Below, in pieces: positions 8,451 through 59,500 of a DNA stretch of 64,000 nucleotides. A program made the position numbers and the translations under genes. Within the stretch, counting starts at the first letter, position 1. Each line of letters begins with the position of its first letter. Source of the DNA: Ulva prolifera (lineage: Eukaryota; Chlorophyta; Ulvophyceae; Ulvales; Ulvaceae); the NCBI GenBank assembly GCA_023078555.1, contig CM041197.1, positions 4,361,810-4,425,809 on the forward strand, in the 5' to 3' direction. The notes under the pieces are model-generated. The model made no database searches. It was not told the origin of the DNA and saw nothing but the letters and a program-made list of their open reading frames with translations.

Positions 8451-11400
8451 CGGGCCTGGACCCGCAATGCGCATCATGCATGCATCGTATTTGGGCGTTC
8501 CGGGGTTGGAGGTTGTGCAATGTGGGAGGGACGTGGCTGCTTGGGTGACGTGACCGCAGTGATGGCTGTGTGGGAATGGCTGGTGCCTGGCGAACGCCGG
8601 GGGCAAGGCTGCATGCCGCCTCTCATGTTGTCAGCGCTGCAGCATGTTGTCTGCAGTGCCTGCCGTGCCCGCCGGGCGTTGGTGAGACTTCATACATGCA
8701 CGGGAATCCGATTTGGGAAGCCGATTTGGCGGCCGCTCGCTGCTTCGTACGCTTCGTACCGCAGGGTCAGGGTCACGGAGCGCTGGGTGTGAAGCTCACG
8801 ACATGCGCAATTTGCTTCACACCCAGCACGGCATGCGCAATTTCAGGCCTTGCTCAGTGCGGTGGTCGAGAGTGATTGCTGTGTGGATGCTCGTTGCAAA
8901 GCAGCAGACGCTCAACAAGCTTGCCGCAGTGGAGGGTGTTTCATGGGCAAGCTTGTTGAGCTGATGCTCCCCTCCCTGCATCACCGCCCTGGGCAGTCAT
9001 CTGCAATCTTGGGTGTGTGCCCGTGTTCATGCTTCTCTGGCATCTCTGTGGGCATCTCATCTCTTTGAGGACTGCTGTGTGTTACAAGGACAAAGGACTG
9101 CTGTGTGGTGCCAACTGTGCTGCAAGTGCAATGCATGGCTCAAAATGCATGCATGCATGTGCACAATGTGACCTGCAGCTTGCCAGCAAACAAGCCAGCA
9201 AACAAGCTGCTGCAGTTTGCATGGGGTAGCTGCACCACTGCACACCACGGTACACCCACTAATTCCAACTTATTCCTCTGATTCCTCTGTTACACTTATT
9301 CCTGTTGACACCCTGCCAGCACAAACGTGCAGCCTCTGTGATGGGATGTATGCCACTTCTACGGGGCCTTGGCCTTGACAGATTGGGTTGGTGGTTGTGC
9401 AAGGGACCCCCTGCACAGATGCTGCACTGTCAACAGGAAAAATAGTAATCCTGCACACATACATAGTGTTGTATGCACCCCAGGGTTGGCTGGGATGCAT
9501 GTGTGCTGCCTGGAGTGTCACTTCTCCCTGCCTGTCTACTGTGCCTTTGTAATGCAAAACTGTGTGCATGGCAGGGCCTGGGCACATAGCGGCCAGTCTC
9601 ATTGAGGATGGCTGTTCCCAGAGAAAGAGAACTTGCTTGCGATTCGGTGCTCTGCCATAACAAGGCCCGAGATTGTGATAACAATCAGAGAAAGATAACT
9701 GTAGCACGAATCAACGGCCCTTCATTTGAGGCACAGCCTTGCCTCGGCCGTGGGCAGGCTTCTGGATACCTCCCTTCTGAGGGTGCTGTGGTGGGTTGGT
9801 GTTGGTATACCCACCAGGCTGCCTGTCAGTCTGGCTCAGTCTGCGTTGACGTCCCCTTGTGTGCTGTCATTGCTGCCTTCCACACTGCCGTCTCCATTAC
9901 AGGCGCATGCATGCATGCACGACCAGCTTCTGGCAATTGAGCACAACTGCTAGGGCTCACCACAAAAGTGTTACATCCAAGTTTGGCGTGATGCTGCTGG
10001 GGGAAGCGAAAACGTTCGAAAGCATGTCTCGGTGCTGCTGCAGTTTCCGGAGATGTTGGTGCCGGGGATCCTCGAATCGATGCAGTTGGAGCAGCAGGCC
10101 GCGTACGTCTCGCTCGGGCCGCTCGTGCGCGACACCGCGCTCTGGGCGCTCACCCTCACCAACTCAGACTTCAAGCCCGGCCCGACCTCCTCCGTCCAGT
10201 TCTCCCTCGTGGCCACAAACACCACCCTGTGGTGCGGGGTGTCGGGGGCCGACGCGGCCCCGGCGATCCGCCACTCGCAGCAGCTGTCGTTCGCACGCGC
10301 GCAGCCATACCATGAAGTTCTCGCCGCGGGGGAGCTCGCGGTCGTGTGGATGAACAGCACGGCTGCACAGGGGGGGGATGCGGCGGCGGCGGCGCCGGCG
10401 GAGACCCCCGCGGAGGGGGGGTTCAGGGGGGCTGTGGGTACCGTCACCGAGCCCGCTGCCGAGCCCGATGCTGCTGCTCCGGGCGCCGACGGCGCGGCGC
10501 GTGACGGTGGGGGCGTGGCACAGGATGTCCCGAGCAGGGCGGCGGCGGAGGGGCAGCCGGTGCAGGCGTCCGGGGCGGCGGCGGCGGCGCCAGCGGCCAT
10601 CGTCACCGTCGGCGGCGGCGGCGCCTCGGAGCCGGCCTGGCTCGTGCCGTTCCTCTCGGTGCTGGTTGTTGGTGCGCACCCTCGCTAAGCCGTGCTGCGC
10701 GTGCTGTGCATGCTGCGGCCCTTGAGTTTCCATGCCGCCCCAAGCGATCGCGTGCGTGCTGGGCGGGCACATGCACATGAGACCACGCCCCGAGGATGCC
10801 ACGCCGCGCCGTGCGCTGTGTAAGAGGAGTGCATCTTTGCTCCGTGGAGGAACACCACGCACGTGTGCTGCTGTGCTCATGCGTGTCTTCGGTGGAGCTC
10901 TCCGGCTGTGTCCTTGTAACACAACATGAGCGCGCTGTGTGCAGTGCTGGTGCTCGCGATCCTCGCGTGCCTCTGCTGGGCGCGCGTCCGCCACCGCCGC
11001 AGCGCCGACATGCCGATCCACATCACCCCGAAGCCCTTCCACATCTTCCACCACGACAGCAGCTACCGGCACTCCTCCCGCGCCTCCGGGACGACGCTCC
11101 CCGACGCGTACCTCTCGGCCGCGGGCGCACAGCGCACGCCGACGAAGTATGATCACGCGTTCTCCGCGTCGCGCAGCGGCAACGGCTCCGGCAGCTCGGG
11201 CGGGGGGCCCCGCGGCGAGGTGCGCATCGCCGGTGGCGGCCACGCACGCATGGACATGACGCCGCTCCCCGGCCTGCTGCCCTCCGGCAGCACGGCCCCG
11301 CCGACGGGGTCCCCCATCGGCCCGGCCGCGGCCGCGGAGGGCACGCGGGGGGGCAGCCGCGCGATGCACGGCGGCAGCAGCGGCCTGCAAGTGCCGTTGC

Positions 11401-14400
11401 TGGAGACGTCGGCGAGCTCGGTGATGACGTCGGGGTCGGTGCTGCTGGGGACGGGGGTGCGCACGATGAAGGACGCGGTGGGGCAGGCGATCCGGGAGAT
11501 GGAGGGGGCGATTGCAGACGGGGGCGACGGCGCCGCCGAGGCGCAGCTCAGGGTTCATGCGCTCATCGGCCGCGGCGGGTTTGGCACCGTGTACAGGGGT
11601 GCGCCGCACCCCCCCTTTCCGCTGCGTGTCGTGGCCCCAGCTGAAACGGCTATGTTTCCGCTTCATGTCTGATCACATGCATGGTTCTCATGCATATGTA
11701 CACGTGTCATATGTAGCACATCTCCGGTGTTTAGTGGAGAGCGAATTCGCGGCGAATGAGCGGGTCCGAGGTGCACGTCCGGGCCGAGCATCTGGTGGCA
11801 AATATGTGTGGCCCACAAGTCGCGAACGGCGTGCTGTGCGTGCTGTGCAGGGGAGTGGAGGGGTCTGCAGGTCGCGATCAAGACGGTGATGCTGCAGCGC
11901 GGGGCGTGCGAGGCGGACGTCAGCCGCGTCGCCTCGGAGGCCGCGATTGCAACCAGCCTCGTACACCAAAACATCGTCGCCACATATAGCCACGACATCA
12001 CCAGCTCCCCGGAGCGGCCGAGACCCCCCAGCGGCACGGCACCTGCAGAGCCGGCGCTCGGCGGAGACAGCAGCTTCAAGTTCTACCTCATCCAGGTGCA
12101 CTAGCCCTAACCCCTAACCCCTCACCCACTAGGTCTGTGCATGCATGTGCCGGTGTGTGGGTGTGTGCTTGGCGGTCTGCGGATCTGTGTCGTTTGCTGC
12201 GCGCGTGATGGGTTTTCTGGGCGTGCGTGGGTGTCTGGGTGTTTGCTTCGTCTGCTTGCTTCTTTCGCGGTGCTGCCCGCCTCGCTGCCTTGGTCCTTGT
12301 AACACTAGGCCACCCTGATCCCGGAGCGCTTCAGGCCACCGTGTGCGCCGGTGCCCAGGCCGCGATCACACCCTGCAGTGGCTGAAAGTGGCCTCGAGAA
12401 GTTCAGAACTTGCACCTGCCGGGAAACGCGCAAGCACCCCCGCAGGGGACGTGCGGGCCATCACATGCATCACGTTGGCAGATACTCTAGCCTACTGTGG
12501 AGAGCGCATCTTGCATCCAGTGTCAACTCCCGCTGCGTGCTGTGCGTGCTGTGACCGCCCATCCACTCCCGCTGCGTGCTGTGCGCGCTGCGGCCCGAAT
12601 CGCACACGCCAGTGGAGAGATGGAGCGCACGGGCGGTCACAGCACGCACAGCACGCAGCGGTCAGAGCATCGCTGCGGGGGGGTGCACACCTCGGTATGT
12701 GGCCTTGTCTGTTCAAACCTGTCAAAGTCCTCTTAAGGTTGCGGCTGACTAAATCCAGAATGCCTGTACTTTCACTCTCTCCGTCCATCGTTCTGTGCGT
12801 GCTGTGCAGGAGTACTGCAACGCCGGCAGCGTGCGGAGCGCGGTATCGCACGGCCGCTTCGTGCCGCCGCTGCTGCCGCAGCGGTGGCGGCCGGTGATGA
12901 GCATGCTCAGCGGGATCGCGACGGGCATGGCGCACATGCATGCGCGGGACATCTGCCACGGCGACCTCAACCCCTCCAACGTCCTCCTGAAGGTGCGCAC
13001 CCCCTCCCATGCTGACCCTGTCATTCATTCATTCAACATATCGCATCTGCAGCGCACCAGCTGCGTGTGGCCACGAGGACCTCAGGCATGCGCGACTGGC
13101 TGCGCTCGTGTTGATCGCTTATCGCGTTGCTTGTTAACACAATGTTTGTTAACACAATGTCTCTTGCAAAACTCAGCAATAGGATGCAGTGGCTGGAAGC
13201 TCAGCCATGGAGGTCCTACACATAGTGCAAGCCTTTTGCTGCTAGGCGTGTGGCAGCTTCAGCTTGGTGGTTATGGTTTTGGTGGTTCTGGTTTTGGTGG
13301 TTTGGTTTTGGTGGTCCGTTAGCACCCGGCACAGCATCTGCTGTCTGTTAGAAACAGACTCCAGCTGACACAGGCAACAGAAACCCATGCTGTGATGCAG
13401 ACTTTGCAGCTTCCACCTTGCTGCTGAAACTGTGCTGACACTGTGGCTGTGGCAGTGCGGCTGGCTCTCTGCTGCTGTTTCCCCCTTGTGTGAGCATCGC
13501 AGAGAGCCCAGGGGGGTAGGCAAACCATTGGCCTCAACACTGTGAAAGCAGAGCAAATACAATCTAGATCTACTGAGCCGCATGCTGTAGAGGACATTGA
13601 CCACTCCAAATGAATGGGACCACATGCCAATGGGGTAAGACACCTGTGTGCAGCATTGGATCAGATGACAGTCTGCAGTCTGCTTACGATCTGTTGACTA
13701 TGCATATGTAATGTGCCAGACCTTTGCATAGCTTTGTGGCGTGAGTCAAGGGATCATGGCATGTATAGATGGCATGGGCCATGCATATGTGACTGAGGGC
13801 ACCTCCTTGTAGCTGCCAGCAGGGATGGTTGCTGGGCAGCTGGTGAGTGAAGCCAGGGCAGGCAGTCAGGTGCACTGCCACAACTGTGGACATGTGTTGA
13901 TGCGGCTGTGTGTAGCAAATAGATGCAAAGCCAGCAGCAGTGGCTGTCATGCTCGTCATGGTGTGGATGTTCTAATGAGTGCTTTCATGTGAGCAGCTTG
14001 CACATTGCACATAAATACATACATACGCAAAAGCAGTGGATACATGATGCCACACTTTGCTGGTGTTGGTAACCTGTACCCTGTCGGCAGTAGCAGTGAA
14101 GGTAGGGTCCACAGCAGTGTTGGTGGCGTCCATCCACAGCAGTGTCAGAGCGGCGTCCATCCACAGCCGTACTAATTAAGCCACTGCTACACATACACCA
14201 CTGTGGCTAGTGCATCCCGCACGCCCTCACCCCCGTTGGCTAGCAAACGGGACACCCATACAGCCTTTCAACCCGCCGCATGGCCGGTCACGCTCAAGGA
14301 AAAATCAATATGTCTTTATAGTCAGACACCGACACACACGTGTGCTGGAGTGCAGGCGGCGACCCCCCGCGGCGGCCCCCTCACCACCGCCGCGCTGCAG

Positions 14401-26214: not shown

Positions 26215-28589
26215 GTTGAACGGTCCTAGCATGTCTCGATACTCGTATTCACGTTGTTTCACCACAACTAGTGAACCATGACGTTACAACAACGAGTGAA
26301 GACGGCGTTGCTGTTGCGCTAGTCAGGGTCCGCCCGCGTCCCTGTTGGGTTGAAAGCCACAGCCGCTACACCGATGTGCATGCATCATACACAATGTATT
26401 ACACATCAACGGACTGCGTGGCGTCCCATTGCATTGCATGCTTCTCCATCCGCGAAGTGCTCCGGTGCGTGGCCATGGAAACATGCAGTGGAGACACAGC
26501 GCTTGCATCTGGTGTCAGTGTTGTTGGCTGCCAATGCAGTGATCACCGCGGCGGTGCTCGCTGGGTGGCTCTGCGTCCTCTTGTTGTCCTTCAACTCTGA
26601 TCATTGTTTCCACATTCTGCCTTCTTGTGCTGGCAGTCAACAAGTTACACACACCGGGCCATTGTATGGCAAAGCAACCGAACACACCAAGTCACGGCAA
26701 CGACCGGTCGCCCCGCAAGCAACCACTAAACCTCAACCTGACAGACCCAGACAACCAAGTCTCAACTACAACAAACGCTCCATGAAAAGAGCTCTCAACC
26801 CAACAATCATCCACCATCAGTGGGACCATGTGAGCCAGGCTGTCCAGTTGTCACATGATTCATGTGACAGTCCATCTGATCCGCTGTGCATCATGGGGGT
26901 ACTGGAACAGTGGCCCAGCTTGACCTGCCACCAGCTGCTGCACTTTGTGTGTGACGGGTCAAGTGTCCAGTGTCCTCTTGCAGATACAAATGTTGACCTT
27001 ATATTTTGCCATGCCATGGCCTCAGATGCGTACTGTGCTCACTGTTAATCGACAAGATCCGCACCTGCGACATGAAGGCAATACAAAGGCGTGTAGACAG
27101 CATTTGAACAGTCTCTGCTGTCGGAACTGCGCCACACAGGCCCAGGCAAGCTGTTTGCTTCGTCTGCTTGCTACTTTCGCGGTGCTACCCGCCCCTGCTG
27201 CCTTTGTCCTTGTCACACACAGGCCCAGGCAAGCTGTGGCTGCATCTGTGATGGGCGGAAGCCGTCACCTGGAGGCAGCAGGCTCCTTCCAACTAGACAA
27301 TCTGGCTGCATACATCCACATACCGATGAGCCTGTCATACAGCATACAGCAAAGTAAGGAAAACCTGGCCAGCTGTTTCCTATCACCAGGAGGTGCCCAG
27401 AAAACAAGGCAAGCTATCTGCCACAGCAGAAAGCTATTCCAGTTGCATCTCTGGCATGTAGCCAGCTCTCCCAGGTAGGTGCAGGTGGGTGAATCAGTGT
27501 GATTACATAAGTATGCCTGAAATCACTGCCAGCTCCAGCTAGGGCAGTACAAACATGCAGCTGCAGGTACCCAGGGAGGCCCTGTCCTGCCTGACAGCCT
27601 TGACTGTCACCTGACAGCCATCTACTGAGATGGTACACTCTCTTGCAATGCATTACATCACCTGGCAAGGCAGGCAGGCCCTATCCTGCCTGCCTTGCCT
27701 GCCTTATCCTTGTAACACTCACACGCAATCTCATCACATCACTGCAGTGATGAGAGCATCAGCCAAAGGTTAAACTGCTATGCATCTGAATGACCAGCAG
27801 CTATCTGGGAGAGTTGGGGAGTATGGGCACCTGGGTGCTGCCTGCTCTGCTTGCTTGCTTCGCGGGATGTCCGCTTGAACTCCTTCAACTCGTTCGTTCC
27901 GCGACTGGCGCCTGGCGATAGGAGACTTCCGTCCGTGCATTCACCAGCAAAGTGTCACCACAACGAAATGAAGAATCTGCTAGCTTCACAATTGTTGACA
28001 TGCAGGCACATGTTCCAGACGAGTGAGCAGGCATAGACACACACATCAAATGCGGCATATGCATGTGATATGTCTCCTTCTGTTGGATGTAGGCTGAGAT
28101 TGTGCTAGAGGCTGAGATTGCCCCCGGGCAGGCACCCAGCACGGCAATGCTGTGTCGCTGGACCTCATCCCCCGAAAATATCTTCATTTGTTGGGTCTAC
28201 TGTATGGCGCCACCGCGCCCGCACGGGTCTCGCACATCGCACCGCCTGACACCCACCTAGCTGCGCCATGTGGCAGCACGCCCAAGCACCATTCGATGGC
28301 CACCCTGAGCACACCTGCACCATTGGGCAGCTGCAAAATCTGGCATCAGTATATGCTCCATGCATCTGCGTGCTCCTGCAGCGGGCTCAAGTACATACAA
28401 CGTGTTCCCCTTCTGGTTGCCTCAGCACACCTACATCTGGTCCGTTCGACGTACAGACACCGAGTGATCACGTCATGAGGCCCTCATGAGGCCCGTCCGC
28501 GCAGAGCAGCCCTGCTCTGTAGAACAAGCTGTCGGCCCCTCATGTAGTGCTGGCCGAGGAGGCCTGCGTGTGGGTGCAGCCTCACCGCA
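26215..28589. other. Spacer with LINE scar
   Basis: No gene recognised. The clear feature is the truncated LINE insertion at 27155-27215. A second LINE-end-like word, TTATCCTTGTAACAC, ends near 27714, but I found no matching target duplication. CCTGCCTTG-type simple repeats occur near 27.58-27.71 kb. Confidence 0.4.
27155..27215 (+). mobile_element. 5'-truncated LINE copy (61 bp) with 22-bp TSD
   Basis: Sixty-one bases match the very end of the LINE (TTGCTTCGTCTGCTTGCT, then CTGCCTTTGTCCTTGT). They are flanked by a perfect 22-bp direct repeat starting CACACAGGCCCAGG at 27133-27154 and 27216-27237. This is a clean 5'-truncated target-primed insertion. Confidence 0.88.
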
Positions 28590-46921: not shown

Positions 46922-46953
46922 TCCCTGCCCACCAGCATCCCTGCCCACCAGCA
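46922..46953 (+). repeat. 16-bp tandem repeat at satellite edge
   Basis: CCCTGCCCACCAGCAT occurs twice in tandem between the tRNA-like sequence and the first satellite monomer. Confidence 0.7.
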
Positions 46954-47435
46954 TCCCAGCACTGCTTGCCACTTGTAACTGCACATGCCCCTCTGCCGTG
47001 TATGTGTGTGTGATGCCACATGGGGCTGACACTCACAACTGCTGTTGAGTTGTTGGTTGTGTGCAGCAGCTGTGAAGCATTCCAGCACTGCTTGCCACTT
47101 GTAGCTGCACATGCCCCTCTGCTGTGTATGTATGTGTGATGCCACATGGGGCTGGCTGACACTCACAACTGCTGCTGATTGTTTGGTTGTGTGCAGCAGC
47201 TTTGAAGCATTCCAGCACTGCTTGCCACTTGTAGCTGCACATGCCCCTCTGCTGTGTATGTGTGTGTGATGCCACATGGGGCTGACACTCACAACTGCTG
47301 TTGAGTTGTTGGTTGTGTGCAGCAGCTGTGAAGCATTCCAGCACTGCTTGCCACTTGTAGCTGCACATGCCCCTCTGCTGTGTATGTATGTGTGATGCCA
47401 CATGGGGCTGACACATGGGGCTGCCACATGGGGCT
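46950..47435 (+). repeat. 127-bp satellite, array A (about 3.5 monomers)
   Basis: Monomers contain AGCATTCCAGCACTGCTTGC, GTAGCTGCACATGCCCCTCT and GATGCCACATGGGGCTGACA. Some carry an extra GCT. The array ends with a local repeat of ACATGGGGCT at about 47.40-47.435 kb, where the LINE begins. Confidence 0.93.
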
Positions 47436-47851
47436 TTTTTTGTCTGTCGAGTGACCTTCTTTGTTTGTTCTGAATGCGTGGCTCGCTCTGCTCGCCGCGC
47501 GTTGCGGTTCCGCCTCCGGCAGGCCCCAGAACGATAACTTAGAAATTATTTTTTGTAAAACACAGCCGCAGTAGGTCGAAGCGGCTTTAGCGCCGGGTCC
47601 TGCGCCTAGTGCAGCCACCGTGCTTCCGCTCTGCGCAGCCAAGTGCTGATCCGCCCTCCGGCCCAGCCTCCTACTCTGGAGCCTGCGACAGTGTATAATA
47701 AATGATTTGACGTCTTATTTTGTCCTCGACAGCGGGGTCACGAACTCGTTCTTGGCCCATACTTTCTGTGGGTGCGGATGCACCAGGCGAACTGATCGTT
47801 TGCCGCCCTGCCCAAACGACGTCGACGTGCCTCAACGGAGCTTAGGCAGGA

Positions 47852-50800
47852 ATGCCGAGTGTTCGACAGGTTCAGCGGAGGCGAAGGAAGGAACCGGAAG
47901 AGGAGCTACCATGTCCTGTGTGCGAGGAGCAGGTCAAGAAAGGGCGCCTGCCCGATCACTGACGTAGACAGCATCCAGGCCATGTGTACTCGACGGATCA
48001 GCTGGCCCTGCACAGCTGGCAGCCGTGCCCATTCTGCAGACTCCCGTTCTCGACCATCAGTGGGGGCCTAATGAAGCACGCAGCGAACTGCCCGCACGAT
48101 CGGCAGCCGCAACTGCAGCAGCGCGGCAGGAGCAGGGATCAGCTGCTTCCCCAGCAAGGACCGTCTGCACCAAGCTCCTCACCAGCTGCGATCGCTGCGC
48201 AGCACGCGCGGGAGGACCGCTGCCGCCACGAGCCGCCGCAAGCGGACGACGCCTTGGTGCACCGAGCGTCGCGCTGCGACCAGGACGCGCGGGACCCCGA
48301 CCCGCTGCTCCCTGGGGCTACGAGCGGCAGCGGAGGCTCCACTGGGCCGCTGGAACAGCCGGCTGCCCGCTCCGACATGGTCCTGGCATCGAAAGATGTG
48401 CACCAGTGGACCGCGGGCAGCCCGGCTGGCGGCCATATCCCCTCAGGTGACGTCCCGTCACCCACACTCCCCTCGGATGACGAAATGCATGAGGACGATA
48501 TGCCGGCGACGAGCTCCATGCCTGCTCCCCACCCCCACCAGACAACAACACTGCATGGGGTGGGAGGCACGCGAGGGGCGCCTGAGCCTACCCCTGAGGC
48601 GGCCGTCCCCCATGCATTGAGACATGCGATGAGCCGAGAGCAGCCGCTGCAGGCCGGTCCCTCAGACCCTGCGCTATCTGGGTCCATGCACGCAGGGACA
48701 GCCCCTATAGCGGCCCCCGCAACAGGCAGCCCCCGTGACGGGAGTCACTCGGCGCAGAGAGCGGCGCAGGCACGCCCGCCAGACCCCGGAGACATCGCCC
48801 CAGACGTCTCGCGCGCCGAGATCCACGGCGAGGCGGCGCGAGATTCGCACATGCGGGACATCGGAGAGCACAGTCGTGTCGGCCGCGACCCCCAGCCGTC
48901 CACGGCCCCCACACACCCATCAGCACCATCTCCGCAGTCCTCGGGCCCGGTTCCCCGCATCCACCAGACGGTCGCCTTCCATGGCAGGGAGGCCTGGGCA
49001 GGGGCTGTGGCTGACGCGGGTGCAGCGATCATCGATGCGACGGAACGAGAGCACCCTCCCAGCATCGTCAAGGCCGTGGGCCGCCTCATCGATCTGCCGG
49101 TCGAGGTCCTGGCAGATGACAGGGCCAGCGAAGGCCGCAGTCGCAGGATCATCGCGCGTGTGCGCGAGCTGAAAACACGCACGCGCCGGGCAATGACGCT
49201 GGGGGAGGCAGCGGGCCTGGACCCAGGCCGCACCCCCACACAAGTGGTTGAGGACGCTGCCATGGCGGACCGGATAGACAGCAGCTGCCGCCTCGGCAAC
49301 GTTGGCAAGGGCGCACGCAGCCTCGACGCCCTCAAGATGATGGAGATCAACGACGCTACCGTCCGTGAGCTCGAGGGGCTCCACCCACGCGCCCCCCCGC
49401 TGGCAGGCCGCCCCCAGCAGCCCTCCGTCGAGGGGACTGCACCAGCCCAGATCGGCGCCGAACAGTTCGAGGCCATCCTGCACTCCCTGAAGAGGGGCAC
49501 CGCAGCAGGCCCCAGCGGATGGACGTACGAGCACATCCGCATTGCAGGCCTGTACGATGAACGCACTGGCGAGATCTTGCGGAAGTGCATCAATCTCATG
49601 CTGGCGGGAAGGCTGCCACACCTGGAGCACCTCCTGGCATCCCGCCTTGTCGCCCTCGAGAAGCCAGCAGGAGGGGCGAGGCCCATCGCGATCGGTGAAG
49701 CGTTTGTGCGCCTGGCAAGTATCTGTGCACTGGCGTGCGTGCCGGACGTCGGTGCCCTCCTCGCCCCGCTGCAGATCGGTGTGGGCATCCAAGGGGGAGC
49801 CGAGATCCCGGGCCATGCCCTGAGGCCGGATTTTGCGAAGCCAGACACCGTCACGGTGTCCACGGATCTGCAGAATGCCTTCAATGTGATGTCCCGGGAG
49901 GCAATGGAGGAGCAGCTCGCCGCATCGCTCCCGGAGCTTCTCCCATACTTCCGAACGGTGTATGGGCAGAGCAGCGCCCTCCTCGCCCGCCGCCCGGATG
50001 GCTCCTGCGTGGAGCTGCGCAGCGAGACGGGCGTGCGGCAGGGCGACCCCCCCTGGGGCCGCTCTTGTTCGCGCTCGCCTACCTCCCCACCTTGAAAGAG
50101 GCGCAGCGGCTCGCCCCCAACGCCCTTGTCGCATCCTGCCATGATGATACGTATGTGCAGGGCGATGCAGACAGTGTGGTGGCTGCTGCGAACGCGATCC
50201 TCACGCGCCATCCATGCAACCGCGCGAAAACCGTCGTGTACTGCACCGATCCGGAGAAAGCGCGCCATGTGGCAGCGCAGTTGCAGGCTACGGTCGCCGA
50301 GGACGGGATTGTGGTCTGCGGCACGCCGCTCGGCACCGACGCCTTCATTGAAGCCCACGTGAAGCAGCGCTGCCAGCACAAAACGGCGCTCATCGACAAG
50401 CTGATCGGGCTGCCCCTGCCGGCGCAGTCGAAGTGGGCGGTCCTGTACTACTGCCTCCAGCACAGGGAGGCACACCTCCTCCGCAACACGAGCTGGGGTG
50501 CGCTCCGGGACTATCTGCCGACCGTCGAGGACGCCACGCTTCGTGCCCTGTGCAACATCATGGATGTGGCTGACCTGACCAAGGCTCAGGCCGAGCAGGC
50601 CCTCCTGCCTCACCGCCATGGCGGCATGGGGCTCCGGCACTACACCGCGGATGTGGCAGATGCGGCACGCCTTTCATCAGCTGCGCTGGCGCAGTGTGCG
50701 CTGGTCGACGGTGTTGAGCGTGGCCGGCCGTTCCGCGGCAGCGCAGCCGTGGAGCTGCAGGGTGTCCTTGACCGGCTACGCGCGACGTGGGGTCACGCGA

Positions 50801-52239
50801 TCGCCGACCTCGGCGCCGGCCCTGCTGACGCCGCAGCATGGGCGCTGGACACCACAGCGAAGCTGCGCCTGACGCAGCTGCAGCGGGCGATATCGCGCGC
50901 TGAGGCTGACGGGCGCAAGGCCGCCATGTTTGCTGCGCTCTTCATGGCCGGCAGCGGCCGGACGTCCCAGTTCACTGAAGACGGCCAGGCGGCGGCAGCC
51001 AGATTACGCAGCTGCATGGGGGCCATGGCATCGGCTTGGCTCACGGCGCTCCCGGGTCCAGTGACGGGCCTGTCCGACCTGGAGTTTGGCGTGTACGCGC
51101 GGCTCCGGCTCGGGGAAGTCCTCCTGCCCCGTCTCAGCGGCGACGATGACACATCCTCTGAATGCCCCTGTGGCCGCAGTGATGCGTCTGGTACGCACTC
51201 GCTGATCTGCAAGTCGCTGTGGGGTACCGTCGTGGCCCGCCACAATCTCGTCATGGAGACATGGCGCCGCATCATGGCACGCGGCGGAATCGCATCAGCG
51301 GTCGAGCCTCACATGAGCAGGCTCCCCCGCGGCCTCGGCCCCGGCATTGGGCTCGCCCGCAACGTCCCGGACAGCACGGACGCAGCTTCCCCGTCACTCA
51401 CCACCAAATCCTCACCCAACCAGGCCTCGGTCGCGCCCGCTCCTCCTCATGGCGCCCAGGCCCTGTCCCCCACCATCCCGCAGCCTGCTCCAGCATGCCC
51501 CGACAGCGCGACGCCGTCCCCCACGGCCGACCACCTCGCAACCTCCCCCGCCCCCGCCGCGGTCGCGCCCGCTCTCTCCCATGGCGCCCAGGCACCCTCT
51601 TCCCTCACGTACGCGGCTGTCCTTGCGTCCTCCTGTGCTGCCACGACGGCGACCGGTGCCGAAGCCCCCGCTGGTGCGGCCGCCCCCCACACCGCGCAGG
51701 CAGTGCCGCAAGCACCGCAGCAGTCGGTCCAAGCACCAGCTGCCCCGTCGCAGGCAGTGCCCCGGTCCCGCAGACCCGCACAGCGGGGCGACATCCTCGC
51801 GTTCTTCCCGGGCGCGCCGGTCATCGGCGACGTGTGCGTCACCCACCCGCTGGCTTCCTCGAACGTCAGCGCCGCGGCGCTCCGCGACGGTGCCTCGGCA
51901 GAGGCCGCCGACCGGCGCAAACGCGAAAAGTACGGCCGGGCCGGCGCGGGCGCGTTCACGCTGGTCCCGCTGACGCATGAGACGTACGGCCGTGTTGGCC
52001 CGGCCGCCTTTGCATTCCTCAACAGGCTTGCTGATGTGGCTGCAGGGTCTGGCGCGGCCTCTCGGCGGCGTTTCCTGGAGAACGCAATGCGCGATCTCTC
52101 GACGACGCTCTGTCGTGCAGTGGCGCGCCAGGTGCGCGCCGCAGCTCCGCTGATGGCACGTCACGCGGGCAAGGCAGTTTTGGCGGGACTCACAGTCCCG
52201 TCTGATGACCTCTCGCCGCTTACAGGCCATCCGGCCTGA
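47852..52239 (+). pseudogene. LINE ORF: zinc fingers, RT, endonuclease
   Basis: The frame opens with MPSVRQVQRRRRKEP at 47852. A first finger (CPVC ... H-x4-H) contains an in-frame UGA at 47960-47962. A second is CPFC-x13-HAANC near 48.02-48.09 kb. The RT follows: GTAAGPSGWTYEHIR, LVALEKPAGGARPIAIGEAF, STDLQNAFN, TGVRQGDP, then LGPLLFALAYLP in the -1 frame after a C7 run at 50047-50053, and the catalytic HDD (ASCHDDTYVQG). A finger CPCGRSDASGTHSLIC near 51.16-51.21 kb and RHNLVMETWRRIM start the endonuclease. A Pro/Ala-rich insert (51.36-51.77 kb) precedes QRGDILAFFPG and IGDVCVTHPL. The C-terminus is KREKYGRAGAGAF and GRVGPAAFAFLNRLAD, ending at 52239. The UGA and the frame change suggest decay. 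Read-through or -1 slippage on C7 is possible but unproven. Confidence 0.85.
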
Positions 52240-52822
52240 GCGGTGGGGTGCCCCTTGGGCGCCCCGTCCGCTTGACGCCACCGACCTGTGGCCTCTGACT
52301 CCAGCTGGGCCGGGTCCGATGGGTGTGCGGGATGCCTTCGTTGGCATGTGCGGGGACTGCGGAACGGCTTGGGCGATGCAGTGTCCTAGGTGCGGTGCGG
52401 CGTGGGCCGGCGGGGCTGCGCGGCGGTGTGCCGGGCTGGCGTGGTATGCTGTGGCTTGGTGGGGTGGGGGTGGGTCTTGGGGCCAGGGCGGCCCCCGGCA
52501 ATCGGGCGGCCATGATGGGCGGCCTCAGGCAGCAGTGTGTTGGGTTTGGCCCTGTCGTACGGCGGCGGGCGTTGTGGTGCTGGTGGTTGTGATGTTGTGT
52601 GTCGGCCGTGGGGTTTGTGCGTGCGCGTGTGTGGGTTTGGGTTTGTGGGTATGTGGGTCTGTGCGTGTGTGTGCTGGTGTGTGGGTGTGTGCTTGGCGGT
52701 CTGCGGATCTGTGTCGCTTGCTGCGCCGGTGATGGGTGACATGTTCGTGGGTGTCTTGGTGTTTGCTTCGTCTGCTTGCTCCTTTCGCGGTGCTGCCCGG
52801 CTTGCTGCCTTTGTCCTTGTAA
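52240..52822 (+). other. LINE 3' untranslated region
   Basis: G- and GT-rich (repeated GTGTGGG and GTTTGTGGG words at 52.60-52.70 kb), then a fixed tail with GCTTGGCGGTCTGCGGATCT, TTTGCTTCGTCTGCTTGCTC and TTTGTCCTTGTAA. This tail is what recurs in the short copies at 9082, 12134, 27155 and 53699, so it probably carries the reverse transcriptase recognition structure. Confidence 0.75.
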
Positions 52823-53698
52823 CACTCACAACTGCTGTTGGGTTGTTGGTTGTGTGCAGCAGCTGTGAAGCATTCCAGCACTGCTTGCCACTTGTAGCTG
52901 CACATGCCCCTCTGCTGTGTATGTGTGTGTGATGCCACATGGGGCTGACACTCACAACTGCTGTTGAGTTGTTGGTTGTGTGCAGCAGCTGTGAAGCATT
53001 CCAGCACTGCTTGCCACTTGTAGCTGCACATGCCCCTCTGCTGTGTATGTGTGTGTGATGCCACATGGGGCTGACACTCACAACTGCTGTTGAGTTGATG
53101 GTTGTGTGCAGCAGCTGTGAAGCATTCTAGCACTGCTTGCCACTTGTAGCTGCACATGCCCCTCTGCTGTGTATGTGTGTGTGATGCCACATGGGGCTGA
53201 CACTCACAACTGCTGTTGAGTTGTTGGTTGTGTGCAGCAGCTTTGAAGCATTCCAGCACTGCTTGCCACTTGTAGCTGCACATGCCCCTCTGCTGTGTAT
53301 GTGTGTGTGATGCCACATGGGGCTGACACTCACAACTGCTGTTGAGTTGTTGGTTGTGTGCAGCAGCTGTGAAGCATTCCAGCACTGCTTGCCACTTGTA
53401 GCTGCACATGCCCCTCTGCTGTGTATGTGTGTGTGATGCCACATGGGGCTGGCTGACACTCACAACTTCTGTTGGGTTGTTGGTTGTGTGCAGCAGCTGT
53501 GAAGCATTCCAGCACTGCTTGCCACTTGTAGCTGCACATGCCCCTCTGCTGTGTATGTGTGTGTGATGCCACATGGGGCTGACACTCACAACTGCTGTTG
53601 AGTTGGTTGTGTGCAGCAGCTGTGAAGCATTCCAGCACTGCTTGCCACTTGTAGCTGCACATGCCCCTCTGCTGTGTATGTGTGTGTGATGCCACATG
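52823..53698 (+). repeat. 127-bp satellite, array B (about 7 monomers)
   Basis: Monomers of about 127 bp with variants of 123 bp (GAGTTGGTTG form) and 131 bp (extra GCTG). They are nearly identical to each other. The array is cut on the left by the LINE end and on the right by a truncated LINE copy. All three minus-strand frames of a monomer are free of stops, so long repetitive open frames appear there. They are not genes. Confidence 0.95.
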
Positions 53699-53930
53699 GC
53701 TGTTGTGTGTCGGCTGTGGGGTTTGTGCGTGCGCGTGTGTAGGTTTGGGTTTGTGGGTGTGTGGGTCTGTGCGTGTGTGCGCTGGTGTGTGGGTGTGTGC
53801 TTGGCGGTCTGCGGATCTGTGTCGCTTGTTGCGCCGGTGATGGGTGAGATGTTCGTGGGTGTCTTGGTGTTTGCTTCGTCTGCTTGCTCCTTTCGCGGTG
53901 CTGCCCGGCTTGCTGCCTTTGTCCTTGTAA
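53699..53930 (+). mobile_element. 5'-truncated LINE copy (232 bp)
   Basis: Collinear with the LINE tail from about 52.59 kb to its end, with few differences. CACATG occurs on both sides (53693-53698 and 53931-53936), a possible 6-bp target duplication, though the right flank continues like a different part of the satellite monomer. It looks younger than the 12.1-kb copy because it matches the full element more closely. Confidence 0.85.
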
Positions 53931-54621: not shown

Positions 54622-56261
54622 CCCTCTGCTGTGTATGTGTGTGTGATGCCACATGGGGCTGACACTCACAACTGCTGTTGAGTTGTTGGTTGTGTGCAGC
54701 AGCTGTGAAGCATTCCAGCACTGCTTGCCACTTGTAGCTGCACATGCCCCTCTGCTGTGTATGTGTGTGTGATGCCACATGGGGCTGGCTGACACTCACA
54801 ACTGCTGTTGGGTTGTTGGTTGTGTGCAGCAGCTGTGAAGCATTCCAGCACTGCTTGCCACTTGTAGCTGCACATGCCCCTCTGCTGTGTATGTGTGTGT
54901 GATGCCACATGGGGCTGACACTCACAACTGCTGTTGAGTTGGTTGTGTGCAGCAGCTTTGAAGCATTCCAGCACTGCTTGCCACTTGTAGCTGCACATGC
55001 CCCTCTGCTGTGTATGTGTGTGTGATGCCACATGGGGCTGGCTGACACTCACAACTGCTGTTGGGTTGTTGGTTGTGTGCAGCAGCTGTGAAGCATTCCA
55101 GCACTGCTTGCCACTTGTAGCTGCACATGCCCCTCTGCTGTGTATGTGTGTGTGATGCCACATGGGGCTGACACTCACAACTGCTGTTGAGTTGGTTGTG
55201 TGCAGCAGCTTTGAAGCATTCCAGCACTGCTTGCCACTTGTAGCTGCACATGCCCCTCTGCTGTGTATGTGTGTGTGATGCCACATGGGGCTGGCTGACA
55301 CTCACAGCTGCTGTTGGGTTGTTGGTTGTGTGCAGCAGCTGTGAAGCATTCCAGCACTGCTTGCCACTTGTAGCTGCACATGCCCCTCTGCTGTGTATGT
55401 GTGTGTGATGCCACATGGGGCTGGCTGACACTCACAACTGCTGTTGGGTTGTTGGTTGTGTGCAGCAGCTGTGAAGCATTCCAGCACTGCTTGCCACTTG
55501 TAGCTGCACATGCCCCTCTGCTGTGTATGTGTGTGTGATGCCACATGGGGCTGACACTCACAACTGCTGTTGAGTTGGTTGTGTGCAGCAGCTGTGAAGC
55601 ATTCCAGCACTGCTTGCCACTTGTAACTGCACATGCCCCTCTGCCGTGTATGTGTGTGTGATGCCACATGGGGCTGACACTCACAACTGCTGTTGAGTTG
55701 TTGGTTGTGTGCAGCAGCTGTGAAGCATTCCAGCACTGCTTGCCACTTGTAGCTGCACATGCCCCTCTGCTGTGTATGTATGTGTGATGCCACATGGGGC
55801 TGGCTGACACTCACAACTGCTGCTGATTGTTTGGTTGTGTGCAGCAGCTTTGAAGCATTCCAGCACTGCTTGCCAGTTGTAGCTGCACATGCCCCTCTGC
55901 TGTGTATGTGTGTGTGATGCCACATGGGGCTGACACTCACAACTGCTGTTGGGTTGTTGGTTGTGTGCAGCAGCTGTGAAGCATTCCAGCACTGCTTGCC
56001 ACTTGTAGCTGCACATGCCCCTCTGCTGTGTATGTGTGTGTGATGCCACATGGGGCTGACACTCACAACTGCTGTTGAGTTGTTGGTTGTGTGCAGCAGC
56101 TGTGAAGCATTCCAGCACTGCTTGCCACTTGTAGCTGCACATGCCCCTCTGCTGTGTATGTGTGTGTGATGCCACATGGGGCTGACACTCACAACTGCTG
56201 TTGAGTTGTTGGTTGTGTGCAGCAGCTGTGAAGCATTCCAGCACTGCTTGCCACTTGTAGC
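54622..56261 (+). repeat. 127-bp satellite, array C (about 13 monomers)
   Basis: The same monomer as arrays A and B, with blocks of two-monomer higher order (alternating 131- and 123-bp forms near 54.7-55.6 kb). It is interrupted at 56262 by the Copia element, which split one monomer after CACTTGTAGC. Confidence 0.95.
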
Positions 56262-56520
56262 TGTCGTGAGAAGTTGTTGTGTAGTCCAGTGCACTGTGTG
56301 CATGGCATGCATGTGCATGCATAGGCCTGATTAGGTCTGTGCAGAGGGTCATGGCAGTTGGGTATTTGATTGCATATAGGTAGACTGTAGCAGGTGAACA
56401 CTATCGTGTTCACTGAGCTCCCGCTGTCATGACAGGTGTGATATCCATTACCATCGTGATATCCTGACTGGTCACTCCCCACACTGTAATCGTGTTCACT
56501 GAGCTCCCGCTGTCATGACA
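56262..56520 (+). repeat. Copia 5' LTR
   Basis: Begins TGTCGTGAGAAG and ends GTCATGACA. Internally it repeats TCGTGTTCACTGAGCTCCCG twice. It is almost identical to 60995-61253. Confidence 0.95.
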
Positions 56521-59500
56521 GGTTATGGGCTTCTGACGACTCCACTGCGCCAGCAATGAGCAACGTCAACCAATTCAAGCTCGGCATCGAGCTCACGGCT
56601 GCGAATGCCGTGAGCTGGTTCAAGCGGATGACGCTGCTGTTGCAGTTGTATGATGGCTGCTGGAAGGCAGTCACAGAAGACAGTGGGACGGACATGGTCA
56701 AAGCTAAGGCTCGACTCGCAATCTCAATGAATGTGGGTGACGATCTACTCCACGTAGTACATCCTGCCAAGTCTCCCAAGGAGATCTGGACTGCCTTGAA
56801 TGCTCAGTTCGTAGGCGTGAGTGCGGCACGCAAGATGTCACTTCAGAAATTGCAGACTTCCTTCAGAAAGGAGTCAACTGAATCCCTTGAGGAATTCATT
56901 GCACGCGCTAACGACCTCCGTGGTCAGTTGGCCACAGCAGCCATGCTTGAGGAAGAGGCATTTGTGCTTTTGTTCCTGGCTGCACTGAGTGAATCACAAC
57001 TAGCGGCTTGGTCTCAGAGCCTGCTAGCTCACAAGCCGCTGATGTCATATGCTGACATAATCGAGAACATGCGAGGCACGTTCGGTGCCGACATGCTCGC
57101 CAAGCGTGAAGCTGCTGCCGGACAGCAAGCTTACGCTGTCGCCGACACCAACGGCGCATGTGCGTACTGTCACAGAAATGGTCATAACATCCTGCAATGT
57201 TACAAGCTGCGCAACGATCAGCAGTCGCATGACAATGGCAACCCCCCGCGCAGCAGTCGCGGCAATGCACGCGGCGGTGGCAGGCGCGGTGGCGGTGGCG
57301 GGCGCGGCGGAGGCCGTGGCCGCGGCGGACGCCCACAGGCGAATTACAGCAGCGCATTCTTCTGCGTCTCAGCGAACCAGGTGTCCGCTTCCAGCTCCAA
57401 ATGGCTGTTCGATTCAGCTTGCACTGACCACATGGTCAATGATGCGAGCCTGCTCCACAATGCGCAGCCATATGCATCGTCATGCACTGTCGCAAACAAC
57501 CAGTCCGCAGCTATCACAGCAAAAGGCGAAGTGCGGCTGACCAACCATCTAGGTGAGCTCGTCACTCTGCAAGACGTGCTACTTGTGCCAAATTTGCAGC
57601 ACAATTTGATATCTCTCGGCCGTGCTGACGCCGCGGGGATGACATACAATGGCAAACATGGCGCACTCATGTTGCGCCACAAAGGTCACCAGCTGTTACG
57701 TGGCCAGCTGTCACAAAAGCTGTACGAAGTCGAATGCACTCCACAGCAGTGCACACAGGCTGCCGCGCCGCATGCGCCAGCAGCCGCGCAAACTGTTTCC
57801 AAAGCAGATGCCCGATTGTGGCATCGCCGGTTCGGACACACCGGCATCACAACCCTTGCCAAAATGTCCAGAGGCCAGACCGTCGATGGCCTCCCGCCAG
57901 CAACAGACTTTGAGGCGCTTTCTCAATCCACAGCCGTGTGCAGCCCATGTGCACAGGGCAAAATGAAGCGCGAGAGCTTCCCAGCATCTCATGCACGCGA
58001 GCAAGTCAAGTTTGCAAAACTCCATGTAGACATCGCAGGCCCGTTCGACACCAGCGCGGGCGGGATGAACTACTTCTTGATAGTTGTCGATGACTACTCC
58101 AATTACAAGATTGTAGAACCTATCCAACGCAAATCCGATGCAGCTCCAGCACTCAAATCGATCATCCTAGGAGTCGAGAAGATGTATGATGCACGTGTCA
58201 AAGCGATCAGGTTTGACCGGGACTCCGTGTTCCTGTCACATGATATGCATGCATTCTTCAAAGGCAAAGGGATTGAGCGACAGCCCACTTCCGGCTACAG
58301 TCCTGCGGAGAATGGCCATGCAGAGCGGGGAATCGGCTCTGTGAGTCCGATTCGTGATGCATTGCTTGCAGATTCAGGTCTGAGGAAATGCTACTGGGGT
58401 GATGCACTCATGCATGGAGTGTATATCTCAAACATCTCAAGCAGCGATGGCGGCCCCACCTCTTGGCAGCTTGTGAAGGGCACGAAGCCGGACATCAGCA
58501 ATCTCCGGCTCTTCGGCTGCACCTGCTGGTACAAATTGCCACAGCAAGCGCGCAACAAGCGCTCCCTGCCTCCAAAGGCAAATGTCGGCAAGTTTATTGG
58601 GTATGCTCAGCCCAACTTCAAAGCTTTCCGCGTGCTGCTCCCAAATGGCAAAGTGATCACTACACGTGATGTGATGTTTGATGAATCGGCATCACCAGCC
58701 AGCGACATGCACATTGATGCATGCTCTGATCTCCTCGCAGATCCTGCTGCCCCAGCTGCACCAGCTGCACCAGCTGCACCAGCAGCACCAGCTGCACCAG
58801 CTGCACCAGCTGCACCAGCTGCACCAGCAGCACAAGCAGCACCAGCTCCACCAGCTCCAGCTCAACCAGCAGCACCAGCACCCGCAGCACCAGCATTGCC
58901 ACCTCAGCAACTCAATCCACTCATGGCGAACAATCCATTGTTCGATGAGTCTGCCCAGCCTGCAGCCCAGCCTGCAGCTCCGCCTGCAGCCCCGCCTGCA
59001 GAGCAGCCAGAATTGCGCCGCAGCGAGCGCATACGTGAGTCGCCGAAAGATGTTTACGCCAAGTTTATGTATGGGCTACCTAGAAGCTCATACGTAAATT
59101 TTCCGTTGTCGGGCTTCCCCCTGAGCCCTTGACGATAGCGGAAGCACTCACAGGTCCAGAAGCACCATTCTGGCAAGCAGCAATTGATACAGAGTATGAT
59201 GCTCTGATTGCGATGGGAGCGTGGAACCTGACCGCGCTTCCACAGGGGAAGAAGGCCATTCCAAGCAAATGGGTCTTCAAGCGCAAGCTCAATGCAGATG
59301 GAAGCATTGAGAGATATAAAGCCAGACTAGTGATCAAAGGGTTTTATCAGAAAGAGGGTATCGACTATAATGCAGTCTTTGCTCCAGTGGTGCGTGCAAG
59401 CACTGTGCGCTTATTCCTGTCAATAGTGGCCTGCTTTGACATGGAATGTCATTCAATTGACATCAAGAATGCTTTTATCCAAGGCACGGTTGCCGAGGAG

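Follow-up and report, generated by a model that had tools for sequence, protein, structure and literature searches.

Pure poly(A) insertions mediated by LINEs occur in human disease genes. They capture a minimal LINE 3' end together with a duplication, as does the scar described here at positions 9069-9107 of a 64,000-nucleotide stretch of Ulva prolifera DNA (the whole stretch that was analysed, hereafter the window); however, a poly(A) scar is not assignable to its source, whereas the 13-base end found here is. Because copies of this LINE group have as their 3' end a distinctive word of 13 bases and not poly(A), insertions far below the usual survey sizes can be recognised and counted. As described in two reports (PMC2912911, PMC2666801), the 5'-truncated insertions of human L1 and zebrafish ZfL2-2 have, like the scars in this alga, a fixed 3' end and a variable 5' end, with duplications of about 15 bp for L1 and with 5' junctions formed in L1 and ZfL2-2 through microhomology or end joining, as here. 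The 5' truncation of LINEs is already known, and the new part is the missing lower length limit: the inserts in this genome reach about 12 bp without a fall in density. The human-chimpanzee survey admitted only insertions of 50-10,000 bp, so that a class of 12-14 bp lies outside it (PMC2912911). In chicken cells, the loss of end-joining factors lengthens LINE inserts, which fits a competition between copying and joining (PMC2666801). The open literature that was searched on very short LINE inserts, algal LINEs and target-duplication minisatellites held nothing direct on such scars, which does not imply their absence from print.

The scar was read directly in the window, where its minus strand consists of CACACAGCAGTCC, TTTGTCCTTGTAA and again CACACAGCAGTCC, exact and in direct succession. 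On the forward strand, both outer copies read GGACTGCTGTGTG and the segment between them reads TTACAAGGACAAA, the reverse complement of TTTGTCCTTGTAA; the 3' end of the insert (minus strand) is at 9082, adjoining the duplication copy at 9069-9081 (Table 1). One A fits either the repeat or the insert, so the scar can be divided into a 13-bp repeat and a 13-bp insert, or into 14 and 12 bp. An earlier note on this DNA had described a 13-bp insert equal to the LINE 3' end between perfect 13-bp duplications, and the letters are exactly as described; its identification of the structure as a LINE scar, and as one of many, was borne out by each sequence sign that could be tested. Here it is proposed, with a probability of about 0.85, that the scar is an extreme 5'-truncated LINE insertion made by target-primed reverse transcription. 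The joined flanks, searched in this genome as the corresponding empty site, matched the scar site alone.

Table 1. Coordinates of the scar and of the LINE-derived features in the window.
Feature	Position	Strand	Remark
Target site duplication, one copy	9069..9081 (9068-9081 if 14 bp)	-	minus strand CACACAGCAGTCC
LINE 3'-end insert, 12-13 bp, TTTGTCCTTGTAA	9082..9094	-	exact match to LINE end
Target site duplication, other copy, 5' side of insert	9095..9107	-	repeat identity
Further LINE tail ending TTGGTCCTTGTAA before CAC	12210..12302	+	5' limit arbitrary
LINE tail between perfect 22-bp duplications CACACAGGCCCAGGCAAGCTGT	27133..27237	+	tail 61 bp, 27155-27215
Long LINE copy inside 126-bp satellite	47434..52822	+	5' limit approximate
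5'-truncated copy of the 47434-52822 LINE, ending alike	53697..53930	+	5' limit approximate

The two LINE copies of the window share the end that is found in the scar. In the long copy, TTTGTCCTTGTAA occupies positions 52810-52822 and is followed by CAC; in the shorter one it lies at 53918-53930 and is followed by CACATG. The tail at 27155-27215 ends in TTTGTCCTTGTCA, with one mismatch, and is hence outside the copy counts based on the exact 13-mer. Satellite arrays with a unit of 126-130 bp lie around and between both LINE copies (46950-47414, 52822-53699 and 54622-56263), and the window also contains a Copia-type polyprotein frame at 56556-59132 with Retrotran_gag_2, gag_pre-integrs, Pol_BBD and SH3_retrovirus, rve being under the cut-off.

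The long copy has two coding frames, 47963-50095 and 49699-52239, which are mutually out of frame and in which putative reverse transcriptase and endonuclease motifs were read by eye. When each frame was searched on its own against Pfam, NCBIfam and PDB sequences, neither matched a reverse transcriptase; the only matches were chance-level ones in PDB and one weak match to DpdE far below the cut-off. Genome-wide, 150 scored matches to the RVT_1 profile were obtained from 452 candidates and did not include the window copy, and the predicted structure of a 197-residue C-terminal piece had a mean pLDDT of 43, too poor for a fold search. The C-terminal frame, also read by eye, has CCHC followed by D...D and K..KY, which we take to be motifs as in RLE-type LINEs (R2/NeSL/Dualen group); unlike RLE-type LINEs with a single site, this one has dispersed CAC targets, and its assignment by motif is without profile or fold support. 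There is also a likeness to RTEX LINEs in the CTTGTAA at the 3' end and the non-poly(A) tail, since in PMC3747384 six green algal RTEX families are listed (Table 3 there), one of them with the 3' repeat (CTTGTAA)n. The LINE was not placed with RTEX, since all 17 aligned tails have one CTTGTAA unit and not a tandem.

Every search in the genome began from the LINE end. In the 88.9 Mb genome there are 1,617 copies of the 13-mer TTTGTCCTTGTAA versus one of the same word written backwards, and CAC follows it directly in 1,369 of the 1,617 copies (0 in the backwards control); a shorter word, TCCTTGTAACAC, occurs 1,956 times versus 19 backwards. The pattern CACAN{4,14}TTTGTCCTTGTAACACA gave 48 rows genome-wide (44 places by hand count, as overlapping starts appear twice) versus 0 backwards. 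The earlier note had made its reading depend on flanked 13-mers being commoner than in a reversed control, and the outcome favours it.

These counts also bear on whether the scar could be a chance or purely tandem structure, in which a 26-bp repeat, present one and a half times, holds the LINE end by coincidence. The window has nine repeat-gap-repeat structures in which repeats of 12 bp or more enclose 10-16 bp, versus one among 20 block-shuffled windows taken together; eight of similar size all sit in tandem or homopolymer DNA, the ninth being the scar, and some scars are tandem arrays now. Judged from the letters, a repeat-gap-repeat alone is not rare, and what is beyond chance is the equality of the gap with the LINE end and its recurrence. 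The 48 rows versus none backwards, the eight sites with 12-14 bp inserts and different repeats, and the rarity of matches between mismatched flanks all speak against such an origin, which was rejected in view of the backwards and mismatched-flank controls and retains hardly any probability. A minisatellite with a unit unrelated to a mobile element was rejected as well: at independent sites, whose flanking repeats are not alike, the inserted letters are those of the LINE end.

The duplications were assessed in 100 listed of the 1,617 matches, on contig C1, plus the three of the window; with an identical pair merged, this C1 sample has 102 distinct copies. Where the tail homology stops, 54 of the 102 have a duplication score of at least 9, versus 5.3% of mismatched flanks. 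When the loci of the 48 pattern rows were included as well (151 copies, leaving out those near locus ends, identical copies, inserts below 8 bp and pure CA-repeat duplications), exact duplications of 9 bp or more were found in 62 copies versus 1.9% of mismatched pairs within 700 bp. The 89 of 151 in which no exact duplication of this length passed the filters could result from decay, deletion or other joining. Around the pattern places, 25 of 47 distinct copies (43 from the pattern and 4 neighbours) are flanked by exact duplications of 10 bp or more, versus 1.0% of mismatched pairs. In the C1 sample, duplication length is 9-31 bp with a median of 13, 9 being the threshold. Inserts from about 12 to more than 600 bp terminate at one common 3' base, the copies having been selected by that end.

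The tails sort by eye into at least three related kinds with their last 13 bases in common, and a stretch resembling GCGGTGCT, located about 26-36 bases before the 3' end, is largely common to the 17 aligned tails. Other 3' ends before CACA were also observed, TTCATCCTTGTAA and TTTATCCTTGTAA, at C1:4706933, C1:3058224 and other places; the TTCATCCTTGTAA end is present at seven places with near-identical flanks. Their sequence suggests that both ends belong to further LINE families with related tails.

Eight independent sites (L088, L091, L092, L103, L114, L116, L128 and L101, which is the window scar) have inserts of 12-14 bp between exact duplications of 13-16 bp, and the flanking repeats differ between the sites. 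L017, with a 13-bp insert present twice, 23 bp apart, was counted once as a ninth event of 12-14 bp. At C5:9098726-9098788, the order is CACAGAACCGGCA, GTGTCCTTGTAA, CACAGAACCGGCA, GTGTCCTTGTAA, CACAGAACCGGCA, an insert of about 12 bp that has been doubled. L130 can be read as a 10-bp insert, GTCCTTGTAA, in CACACACATTT (11-bp duplication), or as 13 bp with CACACACA. About 22 candidates of 8-12 bp were picked among 100 listed of 138 rows, and among the six sub-13-bp candidates with the right flank read, the sole good fit was L137, with an 11-bp insert and an 8-bp repeat; the duplication of L139 is ambiguous, and no convincing duplication was found at L134, L135, L136 and L138. For inserts of 6 and 7 bp, the patterns CACAN{4,14}DTTGTAACACA and CACAN{4,14}DCTTGTAACACA gave 28 rows versus 5 backwards and 16 versus 7, respectively, as counts alone, which include overlapping or repeated sites and carry no claim of duplications.

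The length distribution was derived from the 30 events of the C1 sample with exact duplications of at least 9 bp, the tandem copy L037-1040 being left out. After scaling to all 1,617 copies, event density per bp of insert length is 2.7 at 13-25 bp (2 events), 2.9 at 25-75 bp (95% 1.3-5.5; 9 events), 0.65 at 75-150 bp (95% 0.13-1.9; 3 events), 0.75 at 150-300 bp (7 events) and 0.36 at 300-700 bp (9 events). The genome-wide pattern gave a density of 3.0 at 12-14 bp (95% 1.4-5.7; nine events including L017), or 4.5 after correction for the duplications that the pattern cannot catch. These figures have wide intervals, but nothing in them points to a minimum length near 30 or 50 bp. It is also plausible, as the earlier note expected, that repeat maskers report fewer marks than the element has left, because 11 of the 30 C1 events with intact duplications are shorter than 75 bp and 2 of the 30 are shorter than 25 bp. 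Even the most aborted jumps of this LINE can, it seems, be sealed into the genome as marks so short that ordinary repeat searches would be expected to overlook them, and if this is true, counting insertions by repeat annotation would leave out part of the LINE's activity.

Short and long inserts have alike a median duplication of 14 bp (n=29 and n=27; p=0.38), and in the C1 sample the duplication starts with CAC in 9 of 10 short versus 17 of 19 long inserts. At the 5' junction, the final target bases match the LINE bases that would come next. The mean of this microhomology is 1.8 bases in 30 short inserts versus 0.68 in simulated targets (0 of 20,000 resamples were as high); it reaches at least 3 bases in 33% of the short inserts versus 5% of the simulated ones, and it is zero in 8 of the 30. 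In long inserts, read by local alignment, the mean is 1.3 (21 of 27 measurable), and the difference between the 30 short and these 21 of 27 long inserts was not significant (p=0.19). The sets left out L037-1040, the duplicates L094 and L109 and the composites L017-1024, L120 and L121, and the comparison with simulated targets also dropped inserts with less than 70% match to a long copy; with composites included, an earlier computation on 33 short inserts arrived at a mean of 1.67. An apparent absence of microhomology from long inserts (mean 0.77, n=15) was discarded as an artefact of fixed-index partner reading across indels.

The reading of the scar as a target-primed insertion rests on the exact LINE 3' end, the CAC at the 3' junction, duplications as in the long copies, lengths down to about 12 bp and the excess of 5' microhomology, and from these we infer the enzyme steps, their order and the mode in which cDNA growth stops. 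The LINE enzyme would nick the target strand reading ...TGTG, and the freed end would prime the copying of LINE RNA from its last base, ...UUGUAA. After about a dozen bases had been copied, the nascent end would be linked with the opposite end of the target, in many cases across a few bases that match, and the second strand would be cut about 9-20 bp off and filled in, which would create the duplication. With the 13-base end as a marker, how early the second target end can be joined during target-primed reverse transcription becomes measurable from sequence, and if a product of 12-14 bases carries a normal duplication, second-strand cutting and joining need no long cDNA.

The earlier note's interpretation is thus supported in part. 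Copying itself may have aborted after about a dozen bases: the 5' microhomology fits abort followed by annealing, but the trimming of a longer cDNA fits it equally, and a short RNA fragment as template would leave an identical scar. In the case of trimming, synthesis would yield a longer cDNA, which would pair through internal microhomology with the other target end and lose its overhang in microhomology end joining, and insert length would therefore be uninformative on the extent of copying. This agrees with the above-chance microhomology of the short inserts and with the mean of 1.3 in the long ones, and microhomology joining is discussed for LINEs in PMC2666801 and PMC2912911; however, 8 of the 30 short scars are without microhomology, and PMC2666801, in which 5' microhomology did not rise when Ku70 or ligase IV was missing, favours template jumping there. 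Moreover, abort and then annealing predicts the identical pattern, so sequence cannot separate the two. Trimming is a version of target-primed insertion, whose odds are not added to those of the main reading, and it is regarded as possible at clearly less than even odds.

Degraded 3' fragments of LINE RNA, copied to their end with neither abort nor trimming, would be another version of target-primed insertion, with odds to be treated likewise. They would also yield a common 3' end, normal duplications and inserts of any length, but RNA breakage alone does not predict microhomology at the 5' junction, and a 12-nt RNA would be without the conserved stretch at about 26-36 bases from the 3' end, which may be needed for recognition; such templates are considered unlikely. 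A double-strand break patched with a copy of the LINE tail would involve no nicking by the LINE at all. Templated filler occurs in break repair, and to this extent the scar could be a patch; the duplication size and the CAC start, common to the long copies, are unexpected from random breaks, and this origin is rated very improbable.

For target-primed insertion, a broader form is put forward tentatively, as a possibility that is somewhat doubtful as a whole: joining may compete with copying from the first bases on, with no lower limit, so that scars below 12 bp would be about as dense, down to apparent bare duplications, and scar units would seed minisatellites. A scar with its two duplications already amounts to a tandem unit and a half, and expanded scars were found at L017 (2 units, 23 bp), L026 (2 units, 58 bp), L037 (4 units, 39 bp) and C5:9098726 (2 units, 25 bp). 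At L037 (C1:1803770-1803899), a 28-bp LINE scar and an 11-bp duplication, CACATGAATGC, make up four 39-bp tandem units, as would be expected of a LINE scar acting as a minisatellite seed. Tandem growth was seen in 3 of 11 events below 75 bp versus 0 of 19 longer ones in the C1 sample (Fisher p=0.04), which is only suggestive of short scars being more prone to it, because the difference was counted after the data had been seen. If true, some minisatellites start as LINE scars, and LINEs are a hidden source of tandem repeats.

Some single loci have additional features. At L056 (C1:3134632), the 13-mer is preceded by an inverted near-copy, CAAGGACAAA followed by TTTGTCCTTG, forming a 20-bp palindrome, as if copying had folded back. 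L121 (C6:2427054) has two LINE-end-like stretches, TGTCCCTGTAA and TTGCTTTGTCCTTGTAA, inside one pair of 17-bp duplications, and looks like a second insertion beside a first, since each scar recreates the CAC target. L094, L109 and L110 (C1:12167085, C3:2117315 and C3:2133289) are a single short scar in three duplicated segments; a search for an empty paralogue of L110 with its joined flanks matched three places, which by length and position are the filled L094, L109 and L110 themselves. The insert of L094 differs from its duplicates and is 3 bp shorter, and therefore the scar changed after the segment had been duplicated.
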